Below, in pieces: positions 27,332 to 63,406 of a stretch of 64,000 nucleotides of DNA. This DNA is from Dietzia sp. JS16-p6b. Its GTDB lineage: Bacteria; Actinomycetota; Actinomycetes; Mycobacteriales; Mycobacteriaceae. The notes below the pieces were generated by a model. It had not been told where the DNA came from. It searched no databases and was given only the letters and a program-made list of their open reading frames with translations. A program made the translations under genes and the position numbers. Every line of letters starts with the position of its first letter. The first letter of the stretch is position 1. The stretch is taken from assembly GCF_003052165.1 (NCBI RefSeq), contig NZ_CP024869.1, forward strand, positions 1,274,001-1,338,000, in the 5' to 3' direction.

Positions 27332-27408
27332 GGGGCTATAGCTCAGTTGGTTAGAGCCGCGGACTCATAATCCGCTGGTCGCGGGTTCGAGCCCCGCTGG
27401 CCCCACCA
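27332..27408 (+). tRNA. tRNA with CAT anticodon (Met or lysidine-type Ile2)
   Basis: 77 nt including an encoded CCA. Acceptor GGGGCTA pairs with TGGCCCC, discriminator A; anticodon stem/loop GCGGA-CTCATAA-TCCGC gives CAT; T-arm GCGGG-TTCGAGC-CCCGC. Not initiator-like. The anticodon stem and short variable loop are compatible with Ile2 (lysidine) as well as elongator Met; sequence reading alone does not settle it. Its 3' half is the attachment site of the adjacent element. Confidence 0.93.
27364..27408 (+). repeat. attL: 45-bp attachment core within the tRNA 3' half
   Basis: 45 bp from the anticodon loop to the CCA end (ctcataatccgctgg...), repeated exactly at 41184-41228. Integration restores an intact tRNA on this side; the integrase gene begins 16 bp beyond it. 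Confidence 0.95.
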
Positions 27409-27424
27409 TCGAAACGCCTGCTAG

Positions 27425-28744
27425 TCAGGGTGTTTCACCCTCGCTGGCCGCGGTAACAACATCGGAAACAGGCCCGGTGGTCACGCCGTGGTCACGAACG
27501 CTGCTGAGGCCGTTCAAGGCGGCGTCCACGACGGACTGCGCAGCAGTGTCGGCGAGGTGCCCGTAGATGTCAGCCGTGATCTGAATCGACGAGTGGCCGA
27601 CGATCTTCGAGATGGCCGCGATGTCGACACCTGATTCGAGCAACAGAGACACGTAGCCGTGCCGCAGGTCGTGCAGCCGCACCCGGCGTAGGCCGGCCGC
27701 GTCCGACAGTTCGTGGAAGCGGGCCGACACAGTAGACGGCAACAAGGGCGTTCCATCGTCGCGACAGAACACGAGGTCGTGATCGACCCAGATGTCGGCG
27801 TGACAGGCCCTCAGATCGCCTTGTGTGAGCCTGTGAACCATGAGGGCACCCACGACCCCTTCGAGCAGGGGAACGCGCCTGTAGTGCCCGTTCTCGGTCT
27901 TCGGCTCCCCGAAAGCCACCGACCCGTGATGCTGGCCGCAGATCATGCAGTTCGGCCCGGTGGTGTTATGCGGGTTCTCGGTGAGCTGTTGGCGCACGGT
28001 GAGGACCCGGGTGTCGAGGTCGATGTCAGACCAGCGCAGCCCCAGCAGCTCGCCCCGACGCAGGCCGGTAGTGGCGTACAGCTCGAATAACGGCCCGTCA
28101 GCCTCGGTGCTGGCGTGGTCGAGAAACGTGGTCAGTTCGTCACGTGACCACGGCTTCACACGGTGCCGTGCGACCTTCGGCAACTCGATGTCAGCGGCGG
28201 CGTTGAACGTTACGTAGCGCCGCATCTTTGCAGTCGACAACGCCGACCGCAGGGTGGCGTGGACGCGGCGGGCGGTGGCCGGCCCCATCGGCTTTGGGTT
28301 CACGTGCTGGCCCCTGGTGCGCTTGACGGGCGCGGGGCGTGGCTTGCGGATCTCCACGAGCATCCACTCGACATCGGCGGGGGAGAGATCCACCAGCTTC
28401 TTCGAACCGAGCAGAGGTTTCAGGTAGCGCTCGATGTGGCCCTGGTAGGAGGAGGCGGTGCCGGGGCGTAGACCATTCGCAACCTTCTGTTCAAGCCATG
28501 TGTCGAGCCATTCGCCGACGGTGAGGTTGCGGCCGGTGAGGTCGACGCGCTTCTCGGACACTTCGCCGATCCGCTTCGAGAGAGCTTTGTTCGCCTCTCT
28601 CTGTGTTGTGAAGCCGCGGCGGCGTTCTTGCAAACGCTTGCCAGTAACGGGGTTCTTGCCGAGGTCGACAACGTACATCCACCGAACGAGTTCGACGCCC
28701 GCCTTCTCGCCCTTCACCGTGTACTTCTTCACTGAGCCCTTCAC
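27425..28744 (-). CDS. int: tyrosine site-specific integrase
   Basis: 439 residues. Arm-binding N-terminus, SAM-like core-binding domain (about 72-175), catalytic domain with Arg229/230 (TGLRRGEL), His358-x2-Arg361 (HDLRHG), His384 (GHSS) and nucleophile Tyr394 (DIYGH). An insert at 260-275 holds Cys266-x2-Cys269-x2-His272-His273, a possible zinc site seen in some actinophage integrases. GTG start overlaps the upstream repressor stop. Its 3' end lies 16 bp from attL; the last codons cover one of the GTGGTCAC repeat pairs. Confidence 0.95.
   Translation of the reverse strand: MKGSVKKYTVKGEKAGVELVRWMYVVDLGKNPVTGKRLQERRRGFTTQREANKALSKRIGEVSEKRVDLTGRNLTVGEWLDTWLEQKVANGLRPGTASSYQGHIERYLKPLLGSKKLVDLSPADVEWMLVEIRKPRPAPVKRTRGQHVNPKPMGPATARRVHATLRSALSTAKMRRYVTFNAAADIELPKVARHRVKPWSRDELTTFLDHASTEADGPLFELYATTGLRRGELLGLRWSDIDLDTRVLTVRQQLTENPHNTTGPNCMICGQHHGSVAFGEPKTENGHYRRVPLLEGVVGALMVHRLTQGDLRACHADIWVDHDLVFCRDDGTPLLPSTVSARFHELSDAAGLRRVRLHDLRHGYVSLLLESGVDIAAISKIVGHSSIQITADIYGHLADTAAQSVVDAALNGLSSVRDHGVTTGPVSDVVTAASEGETP
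27477..27495 (+). repeat. element repeat site a: GTGGTCAC-GCC-GTGGTCAC
   Basis: Two direct octamers 11 bp apart, start to start, inside the int 3' end, 69 bp inside the left attachment core. One of four such sites in the element. The position near the core suits an integrase arm site (inference). Confidence 0.75.
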
Positions 28745-29172
28745 GACATGCCGCCCTTCATTGAACGTTGGATATTGACCAGGAGACGCTTCTGCTCGTC
28801 GTACGTGTCGGCCAGGTGCCTGAGGGCCACGTCGACTTCGCCGGATGCGCGCTCGACGGCCCTAGTGGGGCGGGAGAGGACCGTCTGCATGTCGACGGGG
28901 ACGCCGTCGACACTCACTGTGGGCTTCCCTGTTGGCATGAGTAGGTGGTCGACGCTGACCCCCATGGCCCGCGAGATAAGGACGAGTTCGTCGATCTGGA
29001 GCTTTCGTTCCGCGGTTTCGCGGCGAGACACTTTTGCGCGGTCCCAGGAGCCATCTCCCGTCAGTTCCACGAGGCGGCTGGCGAGGTCGGTGGTGGTCAT
29101 GCCGAGTCGTTCGCGCTCGGCTCGGACGCGTAGCCCGATGGCTTCGTAGACGGTGTAACCGATGAACGTCAT
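28741..29172 (-). CDS. XRE-type repressor of the element
   Basis: 143 residues from ATG 29172 (upstream codons to 29298 are unconvincing). HTH in residues about 10-70 (GLRVRAERERLGMTTTDLASRLVEL...AKVSRRETAERKLQIDELVLISRAMGVSVDHLL), then a C-terminal helix likely for dimerisation. Stop overlaps the int GTG, so repressor and integrase are co-expressed. It faces the rightward genes across a divergent promoter region, the standard place for an immunity repressor. Confidence 0.8.
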   Translation of the reverse strand: MTFIGYTVYEAIGLRVRAERERLGMTTTDLASRLVELTGDGSWDRAKVSRRETAERKLQIDELVLISRAMGVSVDHLLMPTGKPTVSVDGVPVDMQTVLSRPTRAVERASGEVDVALRHLADTYDEQKRLLVNIQRSMKGGMS

Positions 29173-29269
29173 GCGTTGAGCGTGCCAAAGGGCGGCAGGT
29201 AGGTCAAACGGATGCACAGAATGCGACAGGTTTTGTGCCCGGCTCAACCGACGACGGCGTGCGCGATTC

Positions 29270-29338
29270 GGTACACGCGGTCCTAGGGCTGGGTACAAAG
29301 AGTGCTACGTTGCGCGCATCGGTCGCACTTTGCATAGT
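29270..29338. promoter_or_regulatory. divergent promoters of the element's control region
   Basis: Rightward: -35 TTGCGC (29310-29315), 17-bp spacer, -10 CATAGT (29333-29338), firing toward the HTH and replication genes. Leftward, on the complement: TTGTAC (29293-29298), 17-bp spacer, TGTACC (29270-29275), firing toward repressor-int. Both have optimal spacing. The 29173-29465 gap holds no other gene. Confidence 0.55.
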
Positions 29339-29465
29339 GTCGGTCGGTCGAAGGTTGGGCGATGACCTGCGCCGAAACGTACAGGGTGCACACAACGTCA
29401 CGACTCGGGCCGATTAGCCCCACATACGCTTTGGGCACACCGCCGGCACCAGAAGGAGAAAGCCA

Positions 29466-29720
29466 ATGGCTACCGCCGACCGCAGCCCGAGAAACATGAA
29501 GTGGACACCCGAGGCGATCCGTGATCTAGGAGCGCGCACCGACATCAAGACCGCGTGCAGCGTCCTCGGCATCAGCTACTCGCTCGGCTACCAGCTCGTC
29601 CGCGAGGAGCAGTTCCCCGTCAAGACCCTCCGCCTCGGCAACCGCATCATCGTCCCCGTCCGCGGCCTGCTCGACGTGCTGGACATCGACGAGGCCCCGT
29701 CCCTGGACAGTGCCGCATGA
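29466..29720 (+). CDS. HTH_17/excisionase-like small DNA-binding protein
   Basis: 84 residues, ATG with a strong SD (agaaggagaaagcc). The core TDIKTACSVLGISYSLGYQLVREEQFPVKTLRLGNRIIVPVRGLLDVL is a MerR/excisionase-type winged helix. First rightward gene after the divergent promoters; may be the directionality factor (Xis) or an early regulator. Stop overlaps the next start (ATGA). Confidence 0.8.
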   Translation: MATADRSPRNMKWTPEAIRDLGARTDIKTACSVLGISYSLGYQLVREEQFPVKTLRLGNRIIVPVRGLLDVLDIDEAPSLDSAA

Positions 29721-29863
29721 GCGCCGTGGTCAAGTGCTCCGAGTGCCGCAAGCGCTGCCACCGTATGACCGGCTGGAGCATCGTCTACAGCGACGGCGAC
29801 GTCACCGGGTATCTCTGCCCCGATTGCCAGACGGCAGACGAGCACGCCGCGGAGGCGGTCTGA
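29717..29863 (+). CDS. small Cys-rich (zinc-ribbon-like) protein
   Basis: 48 residues, ATG in an ATGA overlap with the HTH gene. Two metal-binding pairs, CSECRKRC near the N-terminus and LCPDC near the end, around SDGDVTGY. Zinc-ribbon-like proteins of this kind are common in phage early regions; role unknown. Confidence 0.65.
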   Translation: MSAVVKCSECRKRCHRMTGWSIVYSDGDVTGYLCPDCQTADEHAAEAV

Positions 29864-29884
29864 CTCCGCAATAGCGCAAAAAGA

Positions 29885-29922
29885 ATCCCGCCCCCTAATG
29901 GCTGGCAGGCCGAGGGCGGGAT
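29885..29922 (-). terminator. leftward terminator before the replication gene
   Basis: ATCCCGCCC (29885-29893) and GGGCGGGAT (29914-29922) form perfect 9-bp arms. Read on the minus strand the hairpin is followed by TTCTTTTTGCG, a U-rich tail. It would stop leftward transcripts (for example from the lipoprotein gene) before they reach the control region; a rightward attenuator role is less likely. Confidence 0.55.
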
Positions 29923-29973
29923 CGGAACGATTGCCACGAGCGTACCCCGCCGTGGCTGGATTGGGAATCAAAC

Positions 29974-31518
29974 GTGACCAGCAATTCCCCCGAGTTCAAC
30001 CAGTTCGATTGGCTCAAGGCGCTCAACCGTTCAGGCCGGAATTTGAAGCCGACCACGAAGAACGTCGGCACCGAGCTGTTCAACTACGCGAATGAGCGCG
30101 GATACAACGTCCGACCGGGCCCCTCCACGATCGCGAAGGATCTCGGCATCGACAAGCGCACTGTCACGAAGGCAATCGAGACACTCCGAGAAAGTGGCTG
30201 GATCACTTTGGTCGCCAAGGGCGGGGTGTTCGAGGGCAAGAACACCCCGAACTCCTGGCGGCTCACTTTCCCGTCTGCATCGGTAGCCGAGTCCGAACCC
30301 GAGGGCGGCAGTGCCAGTGGGGGCCTCTCGAACAGGGGGGGTCCTACGACCCTGACCCCCAGGGCCTCACGACCCTCCCCCCCGGGGCCTAGCGACCCTG
30401 ACCCCCAGGGCCTCACGACCCTCCAAAGAGATCACTTAACAAATCACTCAACAGTTCATGGAACAGATTCTTTTGCGCATTCCGGCGTGGAAGCGCAGGG
30501 CGCGGCTGGGGCAAGCGCACCTGCCGGCGCGCCACACATGGACGATGAAGAGTTTCAAAAGTTCTGGGATGTATACCCGAATCGGCGCGACCGGAAGCGG
30601 GCGTACCCATTCTTCGTCGAGGCAAGGACAAGGGCGAGCCTCGACGCCATCGTGGCTGGGGCTCAGCGTTACGCGGATGACCCGAACCGGGACCTGACCA
30701 AGGACCCGAAGACGTGGCTGGCGGGGGAGTGCTGGAACGACGAACTGATTCCCTCAAGGCCAAAGAAGAAGTCATCGACAGAGAAGAGCCTGGACCTCTT
30801 GCGAAACGTTCGTGAAGGGAAGGGCTACGCGCCGGCCGACTGGCTAGAGGAGTCTCCCTCGGTCGATGCGTTTGGCCTCCCCATCATCAACGCGCCGCGC
30901 GATCAGGATTACATCGACGCCGAGGTGGTCGAGGTCGAGCCCTTGTCTATCGAGGCACGCACCCCCGATTCTGTCAGTGACAATGTTTCGGCTCCGGCGC
31001 TTACCGTCGTCAAAGACAATGGCGCCCCAGACGCCTTTACAGCGTTTCTGGACGCCTACCCCAAGCCGACCCCTCCCGCGCAGCGGTACGGGGCGCACAA
31101 GGCGTGGCAGGCGGCAGCAAAAGCGCATGGGGAAGATCGGGTATTGAAGGCCGCGCAGCGTTACACGGAATCCTTCGAGGATGAGGGCAAGGACCCCAAC
31201 TACGCCAAGAAGCTGTCGGACTGGTTCAAGGACGACAGCTTCGACAAACACCTCCCGCACGAGTTCGAGCCGTACGTCGGAATGAACGTAGAGAAGTGGC
31301 TAGACCTGGTCACCGAGCACCGCGATGTCAAGACGGCGCTGAGGTACGCGACGGGTGACACGTTCCTGCCGGAGTGGCCCGCCGAGGCTGAAGGTTGGAC
31401 GAAGGCGGAGGTGGACGCGTTCCGCGAGTCGGACAAGGACCGCTGGTTCCGGGAGCACCGGGACATGCACCTCGAAGTGCTCACACGCCGCTACGGCAAA
31501 GCGCGAAACGTCGCGTGA
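29974..31518 (+). CDS. phage-type replication initiator with winged-helix domain
   Basis: 514 residues, GTG start. N-terminal winged helix (about 20-100: KNVGTELFNYANERG, PSTIAKDLGIDKRTVTKAIETLRESGWITLV), a Pro/Gly-rich linker, then two copies of a module typical of phage replication proteins (FWDVYPNRRDRKRAYPFFVEA ... KDPKTWLAGECWND, and FLDAYPKPTPPAQRYGAHKAW ... LSDWFKDD). The linker DNA carries 23-bp iterons followed by AT-rich DNA. Probably binds its own coding region to start replication of the excised element. Its stop codon lies inside repeat site b. Confidence 0.75.
   Translation: MTSNSPEFNQFDWLKALNRSGRNLKPTTKNVGTELFNYANERGYNVRPGPSTIAKDLGIDKRTVTKAIETLRESGWITLVAKGGVFEGKNTPNSWRLTFPSASVAESEPEGGSASGGLSNRGGPTTLTPRASRPSPPGPSDPDPQGLTTLQRDHLTNHSTVHGTDSFAHSGVEAQGAAGASAPAGAPHMDDEEFQKFWDVYPNRRDRKRAYPFFVEARTRASLDAIVAGAQRYADDPNRDLTKDPKTWLAGECWNDELIPSRPKKKSSTEKSLDLLRNVREGKGYAPADWLEESPSVDAFGLPIINAPRDQDYIDAEVVEVEPLSIEARTPDSVSDNVSAPALTVVKDNGAPDAFTAFLDAYPKPTPPAQRYGAHKAWQAAAKAHGEDRVLKAAQRYTESFEDEGKDPNYAKKLSDWFKDDSFDKHLPHEFEPYVGMNVEKWLDLVTEHRDVKTALRYATGDTFLPEWPAEAEGWTKAEVDAFRESDKDRWFREHRDMHLEVLTRRYGKARNVA
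30347..30485 (+). other. candidate replication origin (iterons plus AT-rich DNA)
   Basis: CGACCCT recurs at 30347, 30370, 30393 and 30416, exactly 23 bp apart; units 1 and 3 are identical over the full 23 bp and unit 2 is close. The period is not a multiple of three, so it is not explained by a protein repeat. Directly after it, 30423-30485 is unusually AT-rich for this genome (caaagagatcacttaacaaa). Iterons plus an AT-rich unwinding stretch inside the initiator gene is the lambda O/ori arrangement. Confidence 0.65.
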
Positions 31519-31533
31519 CCATGCCGTGACCAC
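31515..31533 (-). repeat. element repeat site b: GTGGTCAC-GGC-ATGGTCAC (minus strand)
   Basis: Same 8-3-8 geometry as the other three sites, opposite orientation, one mismatch in the second octamer. Overlaps the stop codon of the replication gene. Confidence 0.7.
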
Positions 31534-31600
31534 AACGCGGATGAACAGCAACGATGCTGCAGTTTTTGGATACCAAATCCGCTGATCGCTCCACAGTGGC

Positions 31601-31915
31601 TTAGCTGTTGATTCGCTCGACGACGGTCTCGTTGAAGATCGACCCTTCGATCTCGGGGTTCACTGTGCACCGGTATGCGTGCGGCACCATCTCGCCCAAC
31701 ATCGGAAACTCGACCATTCCGTGAAAGAAGTAGGTGCTCTCGACCGGGTCGAGCGCCTCGGTCTCAACGAACTCGGCACCATCCGGGTAAACCGAATTAG
31801 CTGCGACCCGCTCGTGGCACAGCTCGCGGGCAACGTCTTCTTGGTCACTGCCACAAGCGGTGAGCGAAGCAATTGCAGTGGCGGATAGGGCAGCGGCGGC
31901 GATACGCGTCAACAT
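31601..31915 (-). CDS. small lipoprotein of the element
   Basis: 104 residues. Signal peptide with lipobox LTAC (Cys21), then a mature part of about 83 residues with three further Cys in total and no recognised family. Transcribed against the surrounding genes, like a moron. Prophage lipoproteins of this kind often block superinfection or DNA entry; that role is a guess here. Confidence 0.7.
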   Translation of the reverse strand: MLTRIAAAALSATAIASLTACGSDQEDVARELCHERVAANSVYPDGAEFVETEALDPVESTYFFHGMVEFPMLGEMVPHAYRCTVNPEIEGSIFNETVVERINS

Positions 31916-31924
31916 AAGCGGAAT

Positions 31925-31953
31925 GTTAGCCCGGATTGCGGCTCGTGGCTAAC
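31925..31953. promoter_or_regulatory. inverted repeat between lipoprotein and HTH genes
   Basis: GTTAGCC (31925-31931) and GGCTAAC (31947-31953), perfect 7-bp arms 15 bp apart, in the 94-bp gap between two divergent genes. Possible operator for the MerR-like protein encoded at 32010 (inference). Confidence 0.4.
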
Positions 31954-32009
31954 GATTGAGCAGGCGTCGACTGCGACTCGGACCCGCGGCGTCACCGGAC
32001 AATTCATGC

Positions 32010-32213
32010 ATGTCAAAGACACAAGTTGACGTGCGGCTGGGGACCTACGACGAGGCTGCCACGCTCGCTGGCGTCACTCCCCGCACCCTTCGCCGTCGAG
32101 CCGAGGCCGGGCTGCTGCGCCTATACAAGACCCCTCAGGACGAGCGTCGAGTCCTCTTAGACCTTGATGAGGTCGAGGCTCTTTTCTCGTCTAACCGCCT
32201 GGTCGAGTTGTGA
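32010..32213 (+). CDS. MerR/excisionase-like HTH protein
   Basis: 67 residues from ATG 32010. RLGTYDEAATLAGVTPRTLRRRAEAGLLRLYKTPQDERRVLLDLDEVEALF is a compact winged-helix DNA-binding domain of the HTH_17/MerR group. Starts the gene run that leads to the tape measure; its stop overlaps the next GTG (32210). Could regulate that operon or act as a second excisionase. Confidence 0.75.
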   Translation: MSKTQVDVRLGTYDEAATLAGVTPRTLRRRAEAGLLRLYKTPQDERRVLLDLDEVEALFSSNRLVEL

Positions 32214-32377
32214 CCACGCGGTCTCCGTATTCGCGGGTTCTCGACAAGTTGACCACCCGCACCGGCGCTGACGTCCGCCGCGCGTGCAAAGAGGCATTAA
32301 GCGAGGCCATCAGCGAGGCCCGCAAGACCCCGGAAAAGCACAACGACAGCCCGCAGGAAAGCACCACCACCCTTTAG
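32210..32377 (+). CDS. small hypothetical protein before the tape-measure gene
   Basis: 55 residues, GTG in a GTGA overlap with the preceding HTH gene. Charged, helical-looking (RRACKEALSEAISEARKTPEKH), no recognised family. Its TAG stop (32375-32377) lies within the 8-bp target site of the IS element, so the insertion left the gene intact. Before the insertion it ended about 20 bp before the tape-measure start. Confidence 0.6.
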   Translation: MTTRSPYSRVLDKLTTRTGADVRRACKEALSEAISEARKTPEKHNDSPQESTTTL

Positions 32378-32378
32378 T

Positions 32379-33833
32379 GGCCCTTCCGGTTTTAGAGTGC
32401 ATTGATCCGGTCCTGAAGCTGTCCGGAGTGGATCAGTGACCGCAAGATGTAGTGCTTGAGGTTCCGGAAGCCCAGGGCGATTCCGCGGAGGTGCTCGAGG
32501 CGTCCGTTGATGGCTTCGACGGGGCCGTTGGAAGCGCCCACGTCGAAGTAGGCCAGGATCTCCCGATGCCGCTTCCACAGCGAACGGCCGAGCTGCGCGA
32601 GCTCGGGGAGTTCGGCGGGTACACCGGCCCGGATCGACTTGAGGAGCTTGTACATAGCGATCTTGCCCTCCCGCTTGCCCGAGGCTTCGTAAGCAGTGAT
32701 GAGTCGCTGGTAGACGCCGTAGGTGACCTCCACCGCCGCGTGCGCGTCATGGGCGGTGAACGCTTGGAACAGGCGCATCTTCTGCTTGTCGGTCAGCAGT
32801 TCAGCGCGGGTTCGCAGGGTGCGGCGGATGCCGTACAGCGGGTCGCCCGTGCGGCCCCGGTGCCCGGTGGTGGCCTGCTGGATGCGTTGGCGGCACACGG
32901 TGAGCTTGTCGGCGGCCAGGTGCACGACGTGGAACGGGTCCATCACCGTCCGGGCAGCGGGCACCGCGCTGGCGGCGGCGGTGTGGTAGCCGGCGAACCC
33001 GTCCATCGTGACAACCTTGACCCGGTCTCGAAACACCTGGTCACGGGCGTCCAGCCACTCGGTGAGGACCTTCGCCGAACGGCCCGGGACCATGTCCAAC
33101 AGGCGAGACGGGCCGGTGCCGTCCACGACCGGGGTCAGGTCGACCAGGACGGTGACGAACGCACTGCTGCCGTCGCCGCGCACGTGCTTCCATTTGTGCT
33201 CATCGACACCGAGAACGCGGACTCCGTCGAAGTGTCCGGGCTGCTCGTAGACCATCGTGCGAACCTCCGAGACCGCCAGGTCATTGACCAGGTCCCACCC
33301 CAGCCCGAGGGCCTTGGCCACGGCGGACACGCTGGTGCGGTCGATCGCCAGACGCTGCAGGATCCAGCGGCTGCAGCGGCGGGTGGTCTTGGCCCGCGGC
33401 TCGGCCAACGCCGGCATCCGCTGCTGGAAGATCCTCGTAGCGCACTCGGTGTTGTCGCAGGTGAAGCGCGGTACCCGCACGTGCAGTCTGGTGGGATGCC
33501 CGACGATCGGTAGATCCGTGACCTTCCGCTGGACGTGGTCCCGCAAACGGCCCGCCATCCCGCACTCGGCGCAGATCGGGTCGAGTGTGACCGGGGCGCA
33601 GAACAGGTGCGTGAGCTCGTCAGCCACAGCGGCGTCGGTGATGGTCACCCCGAGCTCGACGGTGCGGCAGATGGTGTCGGCGAGCAGGCTGGCGGTAGCG
33701 TTCAAAGCGGGTCCTGGGGATGCGAAGTGCTGGTGTAGGAACTTGCATCTTCACACGCCCCAGGACCCCTACATCTTGTGCCTCACCGCATCACCGCAGC
33801 ATCCCCGCTACGCACTCCGGATCCGGAAGAGCC
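32379..33833 (-). mobile_element. ISL3-family insertion sequence
   Basis: 1,455 bp. Imperfect terminal inverted repeats: GGCCCTTCCGGTTTTAGAGT at the left and GGCTCTTCCGGATCCGGAGT (complement) at the right, starting with the ISL3-like GGCTCTTCC. Exact 8-bp target duplication CCTTTAGT at 32371-32378 and 33834-33841. The intact duplication and intact transposase point to a recent insertion. Confidence 0.93.
32392..33705 (-). CDS. ISL3-family transposase
   Basis: 437 residues. N-terminal zinc-finger region (CAECG, CDNTECA), HTH with SVSAVAKALGLGWDLV, then the DDE domain: GVDEHKW (first Asp), VTMDGFAGY and DPFHVVHLA (second Asp region), SNGPVEAINGRLEHLRGIALGFRN (Glu). Full length with no frameshift, so probably active. 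Points away from the tape-measure gene. Confidence 0.95.
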   Translation of the reverse strand: MNATASLLADTICRTVELGVTITDAAVADELTHLFCAPVTLDPICAECGMAGRLRDHVQRKVTDLPIVGHPTRLHVRVPRFTCDNTECATRIFQQRMPALAEPRAKTTRRCSRWILQRLAIDRTSVSAVAKALGLGWDLVNDLAVSEVRTMVYEQPGHFDGVRVLGVDEHKWKHVRGDGSSAFVTVLVDLTPVVDGTGPSRLLDMVPGRSAKVLTEWLDARDQVFRDRVKVVTMDGFAGYHTAAASAVPAARTVMDPFHVVHLAADKLTVCRQRIQQATTGHRGRTGDPLYGIRRTLRTRAELLTDKQKMRLFQAFTAHDAHAAVEVTYGVYQRLITAYEASGKREGKIAMYKLLKSIRAGVPAELPELAQLGRSLWKRHREILAYFDVGASNGPVEAINGRLEHLRGIALGFRNLKHYILRSLIHSGQLQDRINAL

Positions 33834-33854
33834 CCTTTAGTAGGAGGCCACTCG

Positions 33855-36800
33855 ATGGCACTTGAAGTCGGTCGCCTCGTTGCCCGAATAGATCTTGAAG
33901 GAACTTTCGAAGAAAAGCTCGCGAAAGCCCGCTCCGGTATGGAACAGGCTGCCCGCGCGGCTTCGGATCTCGACGCGAAACTCTCGAACTTGGGAAAGGG
34001 CGCGAAGTTCGACTTTCCGACCGCTCCGAAATCGAAGATGGACGACGCCTCGAAGAGCGCGTCCAATCTCGGGGACAGCGTCAAGAAAGCCACGGACGCC
34101 GGCAAGAAGCTCGACGTGTCTAACACTGCCGAGTCGAAGCTGATCAAACTGAACAGCACGACCCGTGACTACGGCGTATCGCTGAAGTCCGCGTCGGAGT
34201 CGGGCAAGTCGCTCAACGTCTCGGATCAGCCGAAGCAGAAACTTGCTGAGACGGCATCGGTGGCCGACCAGGTCGACTCGAAGTTCAAGGGCCTGGGTAT
34301 CACGATGAAAGGTCTGGCAGCTACTGCTGGTGGCGCTGCTGGTCTCGGTGCGGTCCTGACAAAGGGCTGGGACCGGATCACGGCGATCGACACCGCGCAG
34401 GGCAAGCTCCGCGGGCTGGGGCATGAGGCGCAGGGCGTGTCCACCATCATGGACTCCGCCCTTGACTCGGTGACGGGCACTTCGTACGGGCTCGGCGATG
34501 CGGCGACGATCGCAGCCAACGCCGTGGCGGCAGGCATCCAGCCAGGTAAAGACCTCACGAAATATCTAACGATGACGGCGGACGCCTCCGCTATCGCCGG
34601 GGTGTCGCTGGGCGAGATGGGCCGCATTCTCAACCAGGTCCAGACCGGGCAGTCCGCCTACGCGGGGGACCTTTCGCAGCTCGCAGACCGCGGCATCCCC
34701 ATCTACCAATGGATTGCCGATGAGGCGGGTATCGCTGCGTCTGAGGTGAAGAAACTCGCCTCGACGGGCCAGATTTCATCCGAGATGCTGTTCTCCGCGA
34801 TCCAGAACAACATCGGTGGCGCGGCGCAGGAACTCGGCGGCACCCTGACGGGTTCTCTCGCCAACGTGGGAGCCGCGTTCGGCAGGCTCGGCGCATCCGC
34901 CATCGACCCCTTCCGCGAAGACATCATGTCGGCAGCAGAAGGGGCACAGAAGTTCGCAGGCACCCTTTCGTCGGTAGTCGGCCCCGCCGCCTCTGTCGCA
35001 GCCACCGGGCTAAGTGCCGTTGCCTCTGTTGTAGGGGCCATCCCGGCACCCATTACCGGGGCCACAGCGGCCCTGTTCGCCCTGCAACAGACCGGGCTAG
35101 GCCCTCGCATGGCTGGGGCCGCGTCGACCGCCGTGGGGGCACTCAGGAGCTTCGGGGACACCGTCGCGTTGTCCGCCTCGTACGCGGGGGAGGGGGTCCG
35201 GCGAAACGGCCTGTTCGCTACCTCGCTGCACGGCATAAAGGGCGCGGGCGCGGCAGCGCGAAGCGGCCTGTCGTCTGTGGTGGACATGCTCGGCGGGCCC
35301 TGGATGATAGGCATCGCAGCCGCGGGCGTGACTATCGGCGCGATGGTCGACTCCGCGAACCGGGCTCGCGAGGCAAACCAGGCCCTCGCCGATGCAGCAT
35401 CCGCAGGTGCGGCGGCACAGACCGAACTCGGTGACGCACTCCTGCGTTCCAACGGTCTGATGGACGAGCAAGCGGTTGCCGCGTCCGAGAAGCTGATCGA
35501 CACGATTGTTGAGGGCACCCGTAAGGCTGCTGAGTCCGCCACCGGGGCGTTCAGCATTGTTGACGGCCCGATGCACCGGATGCGCAACAACTACGACGCG
35601 CTTGCCGGGGCGGTCGACAACTACGCGGACACCGCCAACCAAGGGCTTATCGCGGCGAACATGTCGCGGCTCGAATATCAGGCACTCGAAGACGCTCTAT
35701 CGGAAACGGGATTCACTCTCGAAGATGTGAACTCCATCGTCGCCGATGGCGGGGCACGCTGGGACATGCTGCGCGGTGCCCTCGCCAACACAGGCTCCGC
35801 TGGCGAGGCGATGACCGGAAAACTCGAGACCGGACAGGTGGCAATCGAGGGGATCGTCAACGCCGCGACCGAAGCCGAGATCGCGTCGACGCTTCTGTCG
35901 GATGCCTTCCGCGTGATGGCCGACGAGTCCTCCACTGCGGAGGAGAAGACGAACGCCCTCAAGGCTGCTCTGGACGCGCTGGCGGGGGACACTCTCACCG
36001 CCGATCAGGCCACGGGCCAGTTCTACGAGACCCTGTCGAAGCTCGACGGGCAGATTGACAAGTTGTCCGACGGGACAGGGGGGTTCACCCGCGAACTCGA
36101 AGGCGGCGGGCTTGCCTTCGACATGACCTCGGACAAGGGCAGGAACCTCCACGCCACGCTGCTGGAGATGCGGGATGCCATCGCCACAGTTCGGGATACG
36201 GGCGCGCCGATGTCCGAGGTCATGGCCGAGAACGAGAAGCGGATGCAGGCTCTCGCCACTGAGACAGGGCTGACGACGCAACAACTGTGGGAACTCGGCG
36301 AGCGTATGGGGTTCATCCCCGACGTCATCGAAACCGTGGTGTCAGTCGACGGGGCCGGAGCTGTCGCGGGTGAACTCGCCATCGTGTCCCAGTCCCTCAA
36401 GGACGTCGAGCAGGGCGCGGAAGTCGAGGTCAAGAACGTCACCGACGAAGCGCTCCTGTACCTCCAGGAGGTCGGCTGGGCGGCCGAGCGCATCCCCGGC
36501 ACTCCGAACATCCGGGTTACCGCGCAGACGTCCGAGGCGCAGGCCCAGTTGCAGGGCACAATCACGATGGCCGCGAACCTTGCCGCGGCGGACCCGAACG
36601 TCAACGTCGACTCGAACGCAGACTTCGTCACCATCGCCCTCGGGCTGACGAAAGACGCCGTCGACCAGCTCCCCGACGGGCACGTCGAAATCACCGACAC
36701 CACCGACGAGAACATGGCACGCCTGGAAGCACTCGGCATTGAAACCCGCAAGGACAAGTCGGGCCGGGTCATCATCAACGATGCCGACGTCGACAGGGCG

Positions 36801-38306
36801 AGGCAGCGCGTCACGGACCTGAACAACATCCGCACGGAGTCCCGCCACACGGTAATCATCGGCACTGTCAACCGTGGCGGCAACGACGCCTCTACGGCGG
36901 GCATCACGGTCGGACAGCATTACGCCGACGGCGGTATCCGGGGCAGCCTCCCCGACCAGGCCACGATCGCATCCCCGAAGGGTCCACGCGGCATCGTCCA
37001 ATGGGCCGAACCCGAGACCGGCGGTGAGGCGTTCATCCCGCTCGCCCCGGCGAAACGTGGCCGCTCCGAGCGCATCCTCTCCCAGGTCGCCGACAAGTTC
37101 GGCTACAAACTGGCAGCGTTCAGCGACGGCGGCATCATGGCGTCCGGGCTAATCGACCTCGCTAAAGGCGTAGAGGGCAAACCCTACGTTTGGGGCGGCG
37201 TGCAGTACGGCGACTGCTCCGGAGCAGTATCCAGCTTGGCCAACTACGTCAGTGGTCGAGCCCCATTCGGGTCCCGCTTCGCCACGGGCAACCAACGACA
37301 GGCGCTCCGCGAGCGGGGGTTCATCAACGGGCGCGGAGGCCCCGGCGACCTGCGCATCGGTTGGTACAACGGAGGCCCCTACGGAGGGCACACCAGCGCC
37401 ACACTGCCCAACGGCGTCAACTTCGAGATGGGCGGGGCCAGGGGCAATGGCCAGTACGGCGGGCAAGCCGTCGGAGCCGACTGGAGCCAATACACAGACC
37501 ACGCGTACTTCCCCATGAGCAGGTTCGCGGACATTGACGCAGCCGTCACCGGCGACGCCATGTCGGCTATCGGGGCACGCCTCGGCACCGGCAACCCGTC
37601 CATGCCCAACGACCCCGGCAGCCCGTCCGCCTCCGGTATCGACCTCACAGTCTCGGGCGCGGCCACAGGCTCGGGCACGCCCGTCTTCGTCACCAACTGG
37701 CCCGGGGGAGCGTCAACTGGGGGCGGGGACATCAAAGCCAGCATCACAGGCGACACCGCAGGCAACGGCTTCATCGAAGGCGCATCACCCGCAGGGATGA
37801 TCGCCAACGCGATGGGCCGAGGCGACCTCGTCAAGGTGGAGAAATTCGCCGACGGTGGCTTCCACGGACTCGAAAACCACAGCGCCCACATCGCGCCACA
37901 GGGGTCCATGCGGATCTTCGGCGAACCCGAGACCGGGGGCGAGGCCTACATCCCCTTGGCTTCACACAAGCGGGCACGGTCCACCGCGATCCTCGCAGAG
38001 ACCGCCCGACGGTTCGGCTACTCCCTCGGAGCTGGCGTCAACCTCGCCGGCTCCGTCCTCACCGGCAACGGACTGGACACGGGCTGGGGAGGACCCGGAC
38101 TGGGAGACCTCGGCATCGACACCGGGGCATTCAAGGACGCCGTTCAACCGTCCATCAACGCCGACGCCGAACGGCTCGGAGCGGAGATCGCGGCAGCGGC
38201 AACCCGGTTCCTCGTCGACGCGCAGCAAGGCGTCGACAAGGCCATGCGAGCCACCGACGACCAGCAGCGGCAACTACGCCAGAACTACGCGAGGGCGATG
38301 ATATGA
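33855..38306 (+). CDS. phage tail tape-measure protein with C-terminal NlpC/P60-like domain
   Basis: 1,483 residues from ATG 33855, with SD AGGAGG at 33842-33847 just outside the IS target site. Charged N-terminal helices, then a TMP core (SYGLGDAATIAANAVAAGIQPGKDL-type, LADRGIPIYQWIADEAGI, SLANVGAAFGRLG), hydrophobic segments around residues 360-520, and a peptidase-like domain near 1100-1200 with Cys1121 (GDCSGAVSSL) and His1179 (YGGHTSATL). The motif EPETGGEA-[FY]-IPLA occurs twice. It should set tail length and help DNA entry. It is the only recognisable virion gene of the element. Confidence 0.93.
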   Translation: MALEVGRLVARIDLEGTFEEKLAKARSGMEQAARAASDLDAKLSNLGKGAKFDFPTAPKSKMDDASKSASNLGDSVKKATDAGKKLDVSNTAESKLIKLNSTTRDYGVSLKSASESGKSLNVSDQPKQKLAETASVADQVDSKFKGLGITMKGLAATAGGAAGLGAVLTKGWDRITAIDTAQGKLRGLGHEAQGVSTIMDSALDSVTGTSYGLGDAATIAANAVAAGIQPGKDLTKYLTMTADASAIAGVSLGEMGRILNQVQTGQSAYAGDLSQLADRGIPIYQWIADEAGIAASEVKKLASTGQISSEMLFSAIQNNIGGAAQELGGTLTGSLANVGAAFGRLGASAIDPFREDIMSAAEGAQKFAGTLSSVVGPAASVAATGLSAVASVVGAIPAPITGATAALFALQQTGLGPRMAGAASTAVGALRSFGDTVALSASYAGEGVRRNGLFATSLHGIKGAGAAARSGLSSVVDMLGGPWMIGIAAAGVTIGAMVDSANRAREANQALADAASAGAAAQTELGDALLRSNGLMDEQAVAASEKLIDTIVEGTRKAAESATGAFSIVDGPMHRMRNNYDALAGAVDNYADTANQGLIAANMSRLEYQALEDALSETGFTLEDVNSIVADGGARWDMLRGALANTGSAGEAMTGKLETGQVAIEGIVNAATEAEIASTLLSDAFRVMADESSTAEEKTNALKAALDALAGDTLTADQATGQFYETLSKLDGQIDKLSDGTGGFTRELEGGGLAFDMTSDKGRNLHATLLEMRDAIATVRDTGAPMSEVMAENEKRMQALATETGLTTQQLWELGERMGFIPDVIETVVSVDGAGAVAGELAIVSQSLKDVEQGAEVEVKNVTDEALLYLQEVGWAAERIPGTPNIRVTAQTSEAQAQLQGTITMAANLAAADPNVNVDSNADFVTIALGLTKDAVDQLPDGHVEITDTTDENMARLEALGIETRKDKSGRVIINDADVDRARQRVTDLNNIRTESRHTVIIGTVNRGGNDASTAGITVGQHYADGGIRGSLPDQATIASPKGPRGIVQWAEPETGGEAFIPLAPAKRGRSERILSQVADKFGYKLAAFSDGGIMASGLIDLAKGVEGKPYVWGGVQYGDCSGAVSSLANYVSGRAPFGSRFATGNQRQALRERGFINGRGGPGDLRIGWYNGGPYGGHTSATLPNGVNFEMGGARGNGQYGGQAVGADWSQYTDHAYFPMSRFADIDAAVTGDAMSAIGARLGTGNPSMPNDPGSPSASGIDLTVSGAATGSGTPVFVTNWPGGASTGGGDIKASITGDTAGNGFIEGASPAGMIANAMGRGDLVKVEKFADGGFHGLENHSAHIAPQGSMRIFGEPETGGEAYIPLASHKRARSTAILAETARRFGYSLGAGVNLAGSVLTGNGLDTGWGGPGLGDLGIDTGAFKDAVQPSINADAERLGAEIAAAATRFLVDAQQGVDKAMRATDDQQRQLRQNYARAMI

Positions 38307-38500
38307 CGACCCAGTACATCGACACTCAGATGCCCGGCGACTCGCCCCTCGTCCCGGACGAACCGCCCTGCCAAGACTGCACCGCAAGCGCCGACATCCA
38401 CTACTTCCGCGATGGACAGTGCCTGATCCTCGTCCACCACGACGACACCTGCCCCCGCCTACTCACCCTCCACCGCAACGCACGAGGACACCACACATGA
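38303..38500 (+). CDS. small Cys/His-containing protein
   Basis: 65 residues, ATG overlapping the tape-measure stop. Contains CQDC and later CLILVHHDDTC, a possible zinc site. No recognised family. Coupled on both sides by ATGA overlaps, so it is made together with the tape measure. Confidence 0.65.
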   Translation: MTTQYIDTQMPGDSPLVPDEPPCQDCTASADIHYFRDGQCLILVHHDDTCPRLLTLHRNARGHHT

Positions 38501-38652
38501 ACCGCATCCCCACACCCGACACCGACCGCTTCGACGCCCTCAAGGCCGACATCGCCGCCATCTTCCGCAAGTACCCCGAAGCAATCGTCCCCGCCATCGC
38601 AGCCCTCCAAGACGCAGTCGCAGACCACGACCCCCGGAGACGAGCAGGATGA
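38497..38652 (+). CDS. small acidic helical protein
   Basis: 51 residues, ATG 38497 in an ATGA overlap. Predicted helical (DRFDALKADIAAIFRKYPEAIVPAIAALQDAVADHD). No family recognised. Its stop overlaps the TerS-like gene start (38649). Confidence 0.6.
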   Translation: MNRIPTPDTDRFDALKADIAAIFRKYPEAIVPAIAALQDAVADHDPRRRAG

Positions 38653-39221
38653 TCGACATCGCCGACGACGGCGAACCGTCTCGGTCCACCCCCCAAAAGC
38701 TGCCTGCGCAGCACAGTCGGAACACCCTCGACGACGCGGTCAAACGCGCCTACGAGGCCGGGTACGGGCGCAACCAGATCGCCGAAGCACTCGGAGTCGG
38801 TGGGGGAACCGTCTCTCGTGCAGCAGTCCGGCTCGGGCTCAAGTTTGACGGTACCCAGACCGCCCAGGCCACCGCGTCACGTGTCGAATCTGCTCGCTTC
38901 AACCTCGCCTCGACGCTCTCGGAAGTCGCCGAATTGGGGGCGCGCAGGATGCTGGTCGAGATTCAAGCCGACGTGATCGACCCGTCCGTACTCAAGGCTG
39001 TGAGCATCGCGACGGGGATTGCTATCGACAAGCTTGCGGTAATCGCTGAACAGTTGCCGGCCCCGCAGGATGACTTTGAATCAGCGCACGCGTTCATGGA
39101 GAACTTCACCTACGGGATCTTCGAGGAATACCACCGAACTCACCCCGACGCCGGTGCCATCGAGGAGTGGGGGGACGAACATGTTGCTACCGACGGCATC
39201 GAGCCGTGGGACGCCGATTGA
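38649..39221 (+). CDS. HTH protein resembling a small terminase subunit
   Basis: 190 residues, ATG overlapping the previous stop. N-terminal HTH (about 25-55: LDDAVKRAYEAGYGRNQIAEALGVGGGTVSRAAVRLGL), a helical middle part (ARRMLVEIQADVIDPSVLKAVSIATGIAIDKLAVIAEQL) and an acidic tail. This layout resembles TerS proteins and phage HTH regulators; no large terminase gene is nearby. A TerS-like protein would let the element redirect a helper's packaging. Alternative: a transcriptional regulator. Confidence 0.6.
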   Translation: MIDIADDGEPSRSTPQKLPAQHSRNTLDDAVKRAYEAGYGRNQIAEALGVGGGTVSRAAVRLGLKFDGTQTAQATASRVESARFNLASTLSEVAELGARRMLVEIQADVIDPSVLKAVSIATGIAIDKLAVIAEQLPAPQDDFESAHAFMENFTYGIFEEYHRTHPDAGAIEEWGDEHVATDGIEPWDAD

Positions 39222-39284
39222 TCGGACGCCGATCAAGGGATTACGAATCCGGTAATGTGCGCGTCTTCGCAGGTCAATTGCTAT

Positions 39285-39303
39285 GTGGTCACGGCGTGGT
39301 CAC
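39285..39303 (+). repeat. element repeat site c: GTGGTCAC-GGC-GTGGTCAC
   Basis: Third copy of the 8-3-8 direct-repeat site, in the 203-bp gap between the TerS-like gene and the next gene. The rest of the gap holds nothing I recognise. Confidence 0.75.
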
Positions 39304-39424
39304 TGTCGGTCCGGACATTCGGGAGCGATCTCGGCGCGAACTCGGACCCTATCGGGGCAGGAAAAATAAGTCTTCGAGACCCCGACCACGTCATCGAGGA
39401 GCGGAACCCCGGTTGATTTTCAGC

Positions 39425-39832
39425 ATGGACGATGACGAGTTCCTGGAGGCGTACGGGCGAGCGCAACTGCGCAACTTCTCGTACCCGTTCATCGCCGAGG
39501 CCGTTCGCGAGATTGACCTACAGGACACGGACCCCGAGATGCCGGTGATCGTACGGAACAGGCTCTTCGACAACGTCGTCCAGCTCATGTCGTGGACCGG
39601 TTGGTCGTCGCCTCACGGGAAGCGCCGCCTACCCGAGCACAGTGGCAGGTTCATGTACGCCGTCACAGCTACCCGTAAGGCTTCCTTCAAGTGGAACGGG
39701 AAGCGGTACCAACGCCTCTCGCCAGACACCGAGTTGAAGCCTCTGCCGGACGGGCCGATCTACTACCGCGACGGACGCAGGCACCCCTCAGACCCGCCCA
39801 CGCTGATCTGGGTGCACACCGACAAGCCCTAA
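39425..39832 (+). CDS. hypothetical protein of the element
   Basis: 135 residues from ATG 39425; codons upstream in this frame run through repeat site c and look non-coding. MDDDEFLEAYGRAQLRNFSYPFIAEAVREI... then a Trp/Tyr-rich basic part (MSWTGWSSPHGKRRLPEHSGRFMYAVTATRKASFKWNGKRYQRL). No recognised family. No strong SD visible. Confidence 0.55.
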   Translation: MDDDEFLEAYGRAQLRNFSYPFIAEAVREIDLQDTDPEMPVIVRNRLFDNVVQLMSWTGWSSPHGKRRLPEHSGRFMYAVTATRKASFKWNGKRYQRLSPDTELKPLPDGPIYYRDGRRHPSDPPTLIWVHTDKP

Positions 39833-39861
39833 CCACCACACCACCACCTAGGAGTTGCACC

Positions 39862-40530
39862 ATGGCCAAGAAGACACTGCACGATATCGAGACCGAGCTG
39901 GACGCGATCCGCACCGAGGCCCGCGCCACCGCGACCCGGCTGAAGTCGGGCGGCGACTACACCCCGCAAGGCGTCACTGAGACGTTCACGCGCTACGAGA
40001 AGCACGGCAACTGGTCCGCCAATGTGGAGGAGTTGGCAGCAGCCGCGTCCGCCGCAATCGACAATGCCTCCCGACAGCGTGACGAGCTGAAGGCCGCGAT
40101 GGTCACCCCGGCTGGCACTGTGGAGGAGCAGTTGCTCGCAGAGATGCGCTACCAGCGGCGGTCGCAGCGCGTGTCCGCAGCACTCGACGCCGGAGCTGGC
40201 GACCTAGTCGACCTCATCGCCAACGCTGACCCGGCTGACCTTCCCCTTCTGTACGAGCGCGCCGTCGACCACTACACGGTCAAGGGAGGCGAGGCAGGTA
40301 AGGCCGGAATGGCGATGCTCGACCACGCACTCAAGGAGCGGAACCCGGACTACGCCGCCGCTGCGTCTACCGCAGGCCGCGCCGAGTCCACTCGCCATGT
40401 CATCGCCGAGAAGCTCAAGTTCGTCCGCGAGGCGGTGACCAACCCCGATGCTTCCGATCCGACGCCCGGTGGAGTGGCTACCGTCTCGGTGACCGCTGCC
40501 GGCGAGGACGTCGCAGGCCTGGCAGCCTGA
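39862..40530 (+). CDS. hypothetical coiled-coil protein of the element
   Basis: 222 residues from ATG 39862 with SD aggag near 39850-39854. Ala/Glu/Arg-rich, mostly helical (TLHDIETELDAIRTEARATATRL; VEEQLLAEMRYQRRSQRVSAAL), ending in a Thr/Val/Ala-rich tail. Composition resembles phage scaffolding or head-assembly helpers, but no family is recognised. Last rightward gene before a strong terminator. Confidence 0.6.
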   Translation: MAKKTLHDIETELDAIRTEARATATRLKSGGDYTPQGVTETFTRYEKHGNWSANVEELAAAASAAIDNASRQRDELKAAMVTPAGTVEEQLLAEMRYQRRSQRVSAALDAGAGDLVDLIANADPADLPLLYERAVDHYTVKGGEAGKAGMAMLDHALKERNPDYAAAASTAGRAESTRHVIAEKLKFVREAVTNPDASDPTPGGVATVSVTAAGEDVAGLAA

Positions 40531-40598
40531 CCCCATAGTCTCCGCTGGCTGAGTGTGGTGGCCCGGCCAGCGGCGCGGCATTGGTACCGCCGCACACG

Positions 40599-40635
40599 AC
40601 GAACCCCCACGGCCTTCGCGGCGGTGGGGGTTCGT
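40599..40635. terminator. hairpin between convergent genes
   Basis: ACGAACCCCCAC (40599-40610) and GTGGGGGTTCGT (40624-40635) form perfect 12-bp arms around a 13-nt loop. It separates the rightward operon (ending 40530) from the leftward gene ending at 40648 and can work in both directions. Confidence 0.8.
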
Positions 40636-40647
40636 TGCGTCCAGGGG

Positions 40648-40872
40648 CTACTCAGGCAGTGAGTCGAGGATCGCCTGCGCAACCTCACGAGCGATCGAAG
40701 CGGGGATAAAGACGGGATCGTCGTGGTCCTTGCCGGGGTACCCCACGTGCAACGCCACCATCGCAGGGAGCGGAGCGTCGGGATAGTCCGGGGTGGAGGG
40801 CTCGTACCACGCCTCGACAGGGCAATCGGGGTGATCGACACTGCGAACCTGGGGGATTACGGGAGTTGCCAT
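40648..40872 (-). CDS. small hypothetical protein near the right end of the element
   Basis: 74 residues with a good SD (cgaaaggcag) before ATG 40872. Acidic, Pro-rich N-terminal half, helical C-terminus (FIPASIAREVAQAILDSLPE). No recognised family. The only gene between the terminator and attR, read leftward like int; accessory genes of such elements often sit here. Confidence 0.6.
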   Translation of the reverse strand: MATPVIPQVRSVDHPDCPVEAWYEPSTPDYPDAPLPAMVALHVGYPGKDHDDPVFIPASIAREVAQAILDSLPE

Positions 40873-41183
40873 CGTGCTGCCTTTCGGTAGGAGGAACTTA
40901 CAAGCGACTCTCGGTGAGGGCCGCGATCCCTAACCCATCAGGGATCGAGATGGGTTCCTTTCCTGTACCGGTGGCAGCCGGTGAGTAGACCGTAGCGCAG
41001 CCCGTAGGGCGAATCAAGCCCTTTGACCACCGGCAAGTCGACGGGTTCGTGGTCACGTCGTGGTCACCAAGCACCCGTAAACGACGGAACGGGCAGAGGC
41101 GGCGCGGAATCACCACCACCCCGCCACCTGCGAAAACGAACTAGGCGGAACCGTGCGGAGCAGGCGGCACGACTGGGAGCGTT
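40873..41183. promoter_or_regulatory. intergenic region inside attR
   Basis: 311 bp with no convincing gene. It holds an inverted repeat GATCCCT...AGGGATC (40925-40931 and 40940-40946), and repeat site d (41049-41067). It probably includes the promoter of the leftward gene and the right arm of the attachment region. Confidence 0.45.
41049..41067 (+). repeat. element repeat site d: GTGGTCAC-GTC-GTGGTCAC
   Basis: Fourth copy of the 8-3-8 site, 117 bp inside the right attachment core. In the excised circle sites d and a would flank the core on either side, as arm-type integrase sites do (inference). Confidence 0.75.
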
Positions 41184-41228
41184 CTCATAATCCGCTGGTC
41201 GCGGGTTCGAGCCCCGCTGGCCCCACCA
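41184..41228 (+). repeat. attR: 45-bp copy of the tRNA 3' end
   Basis: Exact copy of 27364-27408. It is only the 3' part of the tRNA (no 5' half), so it is the displaced end of the target tRNA and not a gene. Marks the right boundary of the element. Confidence 0.95.
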
Positions 41229-46873: not shown

Positions 46874-46896
46874 CCGGGGCGACTCTCGGCGAGGGT

Positions 46897-61892: not shown

Positions 61893-62054
61893 GACCGGAT
61901 TCTGCGGTGGAGACGGACGGTTGTCCAGGGGCTTCATCCGCGCAGTACCGGGACGGCGCCGCGGTCACCCCGACGGTCCGGGGGTCTCCTGACCGGTCAC
62001 CCCGGGGGCCGTCGTCCTCGGGGGTGCCGGTGTTCGCTCGTCGAACGCCGGCCG

Positions 62055-63227: not shown

Positions 63228-63406
63228 GACCGGATTCTGCGGTGGAGACGGACGGTTGTCCAGGGTCTGCATCCGTGCAGTACCGGGACGGCTCCGCGGT
63301 CACCCGGACGGGCCGGGGTCTCCTGACCGGTCACCCCGGGGGCCGTCGCCCTCGGGGGTGGGATAATCTGTCGCACACCGTCCCGAACCATCGCGGCGGG
63401 GTTCTC

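Follow-up and report, generated by a model that had tools for sequence, protein, structure and literature searches.

The genome of Dietzia sp. JS16-p6b (3.72 Mb, one contig) carries, within the 64,000-nt stretch analysed here (the window, genome positions 1274001-1338000), a 13.8-kb element integrated at a tRNA gene. Taken as a whole, the evidence is best explained by an integrative phage satellite which encodes its own tape measure protein (TMP) and would swap it into the tail of a helper phage, an explanation that we consider probable. The original prediction of a candidate phage satellite endowed with its own TMP is supported, the TMP recurring in 19 other headless elements. As far as sequence can tell, the element is integrated, has the gene set of a satellite with an intact TMP and no recognised head genes, and belongs to a kind that recurs in other genomes. 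More generally, elements of related bacteria probably build phage tails that are part borrowed and part their own.

The element (27364-41228) is bounded by exact 45-bp att repeats (27364-27408 and 41184-41228), as predicted, the left copy being the 3′ part of a tRNA-Met(CAT) gene from the anticodon loop to the CCA end. A 28-base piece of the repeat occurs twice in the window, and none of 100 shuffles gave two matches. The G+C content is 64.5% in the element vs. 68.6% in the window. Comparison of the tRNA-Met site with two other species of the genus (L023 and L024) indicates that the element is missing in both: the DNA matching the window from position 46895 on resumes after 40 bp in L023, and after about 580 bp containing a different 162-aa open reading frame (ORF) in L024. 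The corresponding interval of the window also includes about 5.7 kb past attR that are missing in L023 and L024; within them, directly outside attR, lies the defence pair IetS and IetA (41694-45184; PADLOC, 1.4e-250 and 3.3e-144).

The features of the element are collected in Table 1. Integrase and repressor are encoded on the minus strand, followed by the AlpA-like helix-turn-helix (HTH) gene (weak match), the replication initiator (Rep) and the onward genes, mostly on the plus strand. The integrase, the repressor and the initiator with repeats inside its gene, all anticipated, were recovered by Pfam and PHROGs matches and by repeat finding (3.3 copies of a 23-bp repeat at 30346-30422). Besides integrase, Rep, transposase and TMP, no ORF picked by codon signature is longer than 300 aa. 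The 1,483-residue TMP had been held not to be debris and indeed it is full length, has no internal stop and displays gene-like G+C by codon position along its entire length; the four start/stop overlaps invoked for this gene run (32210/32213, 38303/38306, 38497/38500, and 38649/38652) are real. The claim that the element has no recognisable capsid, portal, large terminase, other tail or lysis genes was examined with PHROGs and with structural references from four Gordonia phages, and it stands. In the PHROGs scan of 10 element proteins (seven ORFs of <75 aa fall outside it), the search for head genes returned a single weak match, TerS phrog_57 (0.0035) with an 85-aa HTH protein, and the search for lysis genes returned only phrog_971 (named endolysin), which corresponds to the TMP itself; the Gordonia phage references had no match in the window.

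The TMP gene adjoins an ISL3-type insertion sequence (IS), as might be found in a deletion derivative of a temperate siphophage, with the TMP as a remnant after loss of the head genes and of most of the tail genes. However, the IS is flanked by perfect 8-bp duplications (CCTTTAGT at 32371-32378 and 33834-33841); its insertion therefore removed no DNA, and a deletion made by the IS is ruled out for the insertion event. The ribosome-binding site of the TMP is located just beyond the IS, and from the target duplication we infer that the 55-aa ORF was originally followed directly by the TMP, with this ribosome-binding site between them. Elsewhere, the TMP gene of another satellite (L195) is cut at its 3′ end by an IS3-type element recognised by eye (L195:14164-15377), which also suits decay of a former prophage. 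Other evidence on this explanation comes from the related elements described below.

A search with the TMP gave matches in 17 of 101 genomes, its own included, and a search with a three-row TMP alignment in 193 of 401. Prophages and satellites were sorted by the structural proteins of the four annotated Gordonia phages. Out of 42 genome-scan loci, 31 had structural matches and 11 did not; the latter comprise six satellites, namely L044, L048 (= L034), L051, L056 (= L036), L066, and L068, and five others, i.e., two Oceanobacillus loci beyond the reach of the references and three Microbacterium loci located either on short contigs or close to the end of a contig. A further 40 loci were divided into 32 with and 8 without structural matches; all 8 have an integrase, and one of them, L170, is L044 again. 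Structural and integrase matches were both missing from 22 of 80 viral contigs, which were not classified individually as satellite or prophage (L090 alone was inspected among the 22). Later searches added L244, L245, L246, L254, and L255. Overall, 20 TMP-bearing elements without recognised large terminase, portal or capsid were obtained: the window element and L034, L035, L036, L044, L051, L066, L068, L175, L183, L184, L195, L198, L205, L208, L244, L245, L246, L254, and L255. The same genes were also sought within a full-length prophage, and none was found in the genomes searched.

These elements span 10 genus codes (g1, g5, g8, g9, g10, g15, g16, g18, g22, and g29) plus a Nocardia. The named hosts are Williamsia sterculiae (two elements), Antrihabitans sp. 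YC2-6, Gordonia sputi, G. tangerina, Gordonia sp. ABSL11-1, and Nocardia lijiangensis. An integrase was recognised in 19 of the 20 (not seen in L244), that of L066 being of the serine type. Seven elements (window, L036, L044, L051, L068, L195, and L198) have tRNA att repeats on both sides and measure 12.6 to 19.5 kb; L246 and L254 have imperfect repeats that are not at tRNAs. No att repeats were found in the remaining elements, some of which extend to contig ends or to the ends of the stretch examined. As a separate observation, the G. sputi satellite encodes a Fic-type protein (L044:20677-21858) matching SoFic (6e-91), a possible defence cargo.

The TMPs of 14 satellites, including the IS-cut L195, have a median length of 1,529.5 residues vs. 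1,580 for 87 prophage loci, defined by at least three structural matches and with near copies and end-cut genes retained; the two groups show no difference in length (p 0.70). The relationship between satellite and prophage TMPs was analysed on a tree of the N-terminal core (110 rows, 10 satellites), in which L066 carried the phage label. Partial loci (L001-L022), long branches (L042, L072, L154, L156, and L204) and copies (L048, L056, and L170) were left out, and the tree covers neither the satellites without an N-terminal core match (L035, L198, L205, and L208) nor those found later (L244, L245, L246, L254, and L255). The satellite label requires 9 changes for 10 rows, at least 8 of which are forced by supported branches; shuffled labels gave 9.7 changes on average, with 115 of 500 shuffles as low. 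Given this scatter, the satellites do not form one TMP lineage, and the likeliest reading of a tree that cannot separate gain from loss is repeated TMP capture from phages.

Satellite and prophage TMPs of the same genome were compared in three pairs; in two of these, the full prophage has a TMP which is related to that of the satellite and longer. In G. tangerina, the TMP of satellite L051 has 67% identity with that of prophage L047 over residues 1-514, and 45% at the C-terminus; with 1,392 residues against 2,163, it is 771 residues shorter, the missing part lying between the conserved ends. Such a shortened middle with both ends kept is what would be expected if the protein measures length and has to fit the same tail components. 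In Gordonia sp. ABSL11-1, satellite L068 and prophage L052 are on one contig and their TMPs are similar in two parts (56% over residues 33-533, and 37%), the satellite protein, with 1,637 residues against 1,971, being 334 residues shorter, about 140 of which are N-terminal. Alternatively, the TMP could serve DNA delivery, through a wall-cutting domain and a channel, rather than tail length. Consistent with this, a stretch of the TMP resembles an NlpC/P60-type hydrolase (a motif not called by Pfam), the C and H residues of which align with those of L034, L035, and L036. On the other hand, the length and delivery roles are compatible, and the L051 and L047 TMPs keep both ends while their length differs; we regard an exclusive delivery role as unlikely.

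Several satellites have further tail or packaging genes. A tail assembly chaperone is found directly 3′ of the TMP in L051 and L068 (phrog_28033, 2.4e-25 and 1.6e-24), that of L051 having up to 45% identity with Gordonia phage chaperones. In L246, the TMP is accompanied by TerS, an endolysin and a minor tail protein of 779 aa; L247 has a minor tail protein and no TMP within the stretch examined; and in L208 a protein of 126 aa matches a minor tail family (8.3e-16). Thus, the statement that there is no other tail gene is true for the window, L035, and L036, which were scanned most fully, but does not extend to all the elements. Immediately before the TMP, L066 (8154-9071) and L183 (9395-10297) encode proteins of about 300 residues, alike by eye and of no clear family, and L036 also has a 335-aa protein there. 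The chaperone and the further tail genes bear on the possibility that the TMP is a weapon which, made in excess, would poison the assembly of helper tails and thereby protect the host, staying out of the satellite particles. Phage defences are known to target tail assembly (available portions of PMC12987554, PMC11364771, and PMC10884400), and the window has no recognised chaperone. However, the chaperone beside the TMP in two elements, the minor tail protein and endolysin in L246 and the minor tail protein in L247 suit assembly better than poisoning; moreover, a poison has no need of full length, yet 13 of 14 measured satellite TMPs appear full length, L195 being the cut one. Overall, a weapon seems to us an unlikely alternative.

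Another recurrent gene is p218 (about 178-227 aa), which adjoins or lies near the TMP in L034, L035, L044, L051, L068, L175, L195, L198, and L205. Its profile matched 18 of 401 genomes at 24 places, and 14 of the 23 places inspected have a TMP, a share biased upward by a profile built from TMP-bearing elements; among the remaining nine, some run into the end of a contig. Two p218 members had no match in 50,697 phage records, and the comparison with solved structures returned two matches only (E 0.043 and 0.11). TerS (phrog_4479) is found near p218 in L068, L205, L244, L246, and the TMP-less L248. The L068 TerS has matches in 109 phage records, with 51-69% identity in the ten listed, where the matching genes stand beside phage terminases. 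The protein p218 may have a partner role in the takeover of heads or tails. No TMP was seen in L248:5026-19618, itself a p218 satellite, which has 38-bp repeats at a tRNA-Arg, TerS and a protein of 1,634 aa.

Within the genus, the same gene set was sought in related genomes, and the nearest relatives of the end module turned out to be compact islands devoid of TMP. Three genomes (L023, L024, and L025) have elements of 6.6-7.2 kb with the same HTH and p223 genes in last position, inserted at tRNA-Asn (two) or tRNA-Arg (one) and containing also an integrase, small HTH genes and a protein that by eye resembles a replication ATPase. No TMP match was found in these three elements. Strong p223 matches are confined to five genomes, all of the genus: the window, the three compact islands and a fifth genome in which the HTH and p223 end genes are together on a 4.2-kb contig. 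As for Rep, it has a match in its own genome only, among 23 genomes of the genus. Since the end genes are common to TMP-less kin, the TMP is an extra on the local satellite plan in this genus. The protein p223 had no match in the 50,697 phage records or among solved structures; it was kept apart from p218, as a profile comparison of the two gave 50.8% probability over 40 N-terminal columns.

These data also bear on the origin of the element by deletion of a prophage. In favour of such an origin, satellite and prophage TMPs are homologous and interleaved on the tree. On the other hand, the window TMP is uninterrupted, a similar plan is found in 10 genus codes with TMPs from different branches, the counterparts of the end genes are in TMP-less islands rather than in prophages, and p223 and two p218 members are absent from the phage records searched. 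Together with the clean target duplication of the IS, this makes a deletion derivative very improbable.

A satellite with its own TMP could operate as follows. Once a siphophage helper is growing in the host cell, the element would excise and replicate, and its DNA would be packaged into helper heads. The element TMP would take the place of the helper TMP in the tail tube, and both the tail length and the DNA-delivery core of the satellite particle would be set by the satellite. As a rule, tails measure about 0.15 nm per TMP residue, from which a length of about 220 nm is predicted for 1,483 residues. A private TMP would free the particles from the helper TMP, as in the phage-inducible chromosomal island (PICI)-like elements (PLEs) of Vibrio, and would divert helper tail parts from helper virions.

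Several observations weigh against the proposal that the element is such a satellite. No helper was recognised in the genome of the window: PF20441 found no terminase, and the sole match of phrog_2, a search which matched 11 of 14 control genomes, is a PhoH-type host protein. The window lacks a recognised chaperone, as mentioned above. The gene at 38649-39221 had been described as TerS-like; the HTH protein stands, whereas a terminase identity is not supported, with no direct terminase match in PHROGs, Pfam or solved structures (10 matches at E ≥0.0014, mostly HTH proteins or resolvases, none named terminase). Outside the window, L035, and L036, head genes of divergent sequence could have escaped detection; the Gordonia phage references missed the L246 minor tail and endolysin genes, which PHROGs found. 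The interrupted TMP copy of L195 is probably dead. Finally, in the third same-genome pair (G120), the TMP of satellite L208 is slightly longer than that of prophage L186 (1,573 vs. 1,532 residues), and their similarity is weak (36% over 195 residues and 27% over 341).

Extending the proposal from this element to the whole set, the balance tips slightly towards the following scenario. Satellites of actinobacterial siphophages would have taken TMP genes from phages about eight or more times, if the changes on the tree are gains, and kept them full length, often beside the satellite-only p218 and sometimes with TerS and chaperone, building particles which derive from the helper but have tails specified by the satellite. 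Such tail piracy would be common and convergent, and would extend beyond Vibrio.

Table 1. Features of the integrated element and of its insertion site (positions in the window).
Feature	Position	Strand	Evidence
tRNA-Met (CAT), integration site	27332..27408	+	ARAGORN; 3′ 45 bp (27364-27408) = attL
Tyrosine integrase	27425..28744	-	PF00589 1.8e-25; phrog_1 3.4e-77
HTH repressor, start codon uncertain	28741..29298	-	phrog_4 2.1e-6; phrog_3 1e-5
AlpA-like HTH regulator/excisionase candidate	29466..29720	+	PF05930 0.0023 (below cut-off); phrog_32619 (unknown function) 2.1e-12
Replication initiator	29974..31518	+	phrog_270 1.2e-32
Small lipoprotein-like ORF	31601..31915	-	Sequence; weak phrog_12816 2.5e-4
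MerR/excisionase-type HTH; downstream in-frame starts possible	31956..32213	+	phrog_66 2.9e-6
55-aa ORF overlapping HTH gene, stop inside target duplication	32210..32377	+	ORF list, sequence
ISL3-type IS	32379..33833	-	Transposase 32392-33705, PF01610 6.6e-53
TMP, 1,483 aa	33855..38306	+	PF20155 9.7e-15; phrog_10780 1.8e-162
65-aa ORF, start overlapping TMP stop	38303..38500	+	ORF list
51-aa ORF	38497..38652	+	Relative in L025, 56% over 34 residues
HTH protein, TerS-like by place and shape only	38649..39221	+	Conserved in satellites of the genus
134-aa protein	39428..39832	+	Pfam: none at E 0.01; PHROGs: none at 0.1
p223, adjoining HTH gene in satellites of the genus	39862..40530	+	67/38/35% to L024/L023/L025
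74-aa ORF	40648..40872	-	ORF list
attR	41184..41228	.	Exact 45-bp repeat

Away from the element, the window contains two adjacent, very similar 405-aa lipoprotein-like ORFs (60720-63272), probably a tandem duplication.

PICIs follow the plan int - repressor - alpA - rep with a divergent repressor, and have TerS or another packaging redirection gene. The window element resembles them in its order of integrase, repressor, AlpA-like gene (weak match) and rep. As for packaging redirection, TerS is matched in L068, L205, L244, and L246, and the gene in question in the window encodes an HTH protein. The set differs from PICIs in that no capsid gene was found here, that the hosts belong to one actinobacterial family, and that p218 and p223 were not found in phages. 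This comparison, like that with the PLEs, is one of gene content and description.

A close parallel is offered by PLE11, PLE1, and PLE4 of Vibrio cholerae, which are likewise integrative satellites with a TMP; they also possess a tail assembly chaperone, a gene found here in L051 and L068. According to the available portion of PMC12987554 (2026), PLE11 virions contain the PLE TMP and not that of the helper ICP1, and their tails are 10 nm shorter; deletion of tmp costs PLE11 about 99.9% of its transduction, PLE1 96% and PLE4 99%. The same portion reports putative tmp genes in other satellites, including capsid-forming PICIs (cf-PICIs; Extended Data Fig. 10). Chimeric tails are thus shown for the PLEs, whereas here they are predicted. 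Furthermore, ICP1 is lytic and contractile-tailed, whereas the TMPs described here match siphophage-type families (phrog_10780 and kin) of many branches; and the PLE host is a Vibrio, whereas the host of the window shares family code f1 with the Gordonia, Williamsia, and Antrihabitans genomes.

Among actinobacteria, small elements have been suggested as possible satellites, with experiments lagging behind (PMC10023795, available portion). The Streptomyces satellites MulchRoom and MiniFlayer resemble the elements described here in being actinobacterial and in having part of a virion gene set (PMC10690885). However, they possess terminase subunits, portal and capsid, and the term "tape measure" is absent from the available text of that source, the reverse of the set found here. 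Gordonia, Mycobacterium, and other actinobacterial siphophages have relatives of the TMP, chaperone and TerS genes; in the four Gordonia phages examined, unlike in the satellites, head and tail modules surround the TMP.

A satellite with its own TMP is therefore not unprecedented, since PLEs put theirs into helper tails (PMC12987554, available portion). What appears to be new is the occurrence in actinobacterial lineages together with the apparently repeated capture of TMPs. The Gordonia genomes that harbour both a satellite and a full prophage with a related, longer TMP provide natural pairs for the comparison of tail lengths. If the same strategy holds in unrelated elements of another phylum, with TMPs from many branches, tail takeover would be a general part of satellite biology and the PLEs one instance of it.

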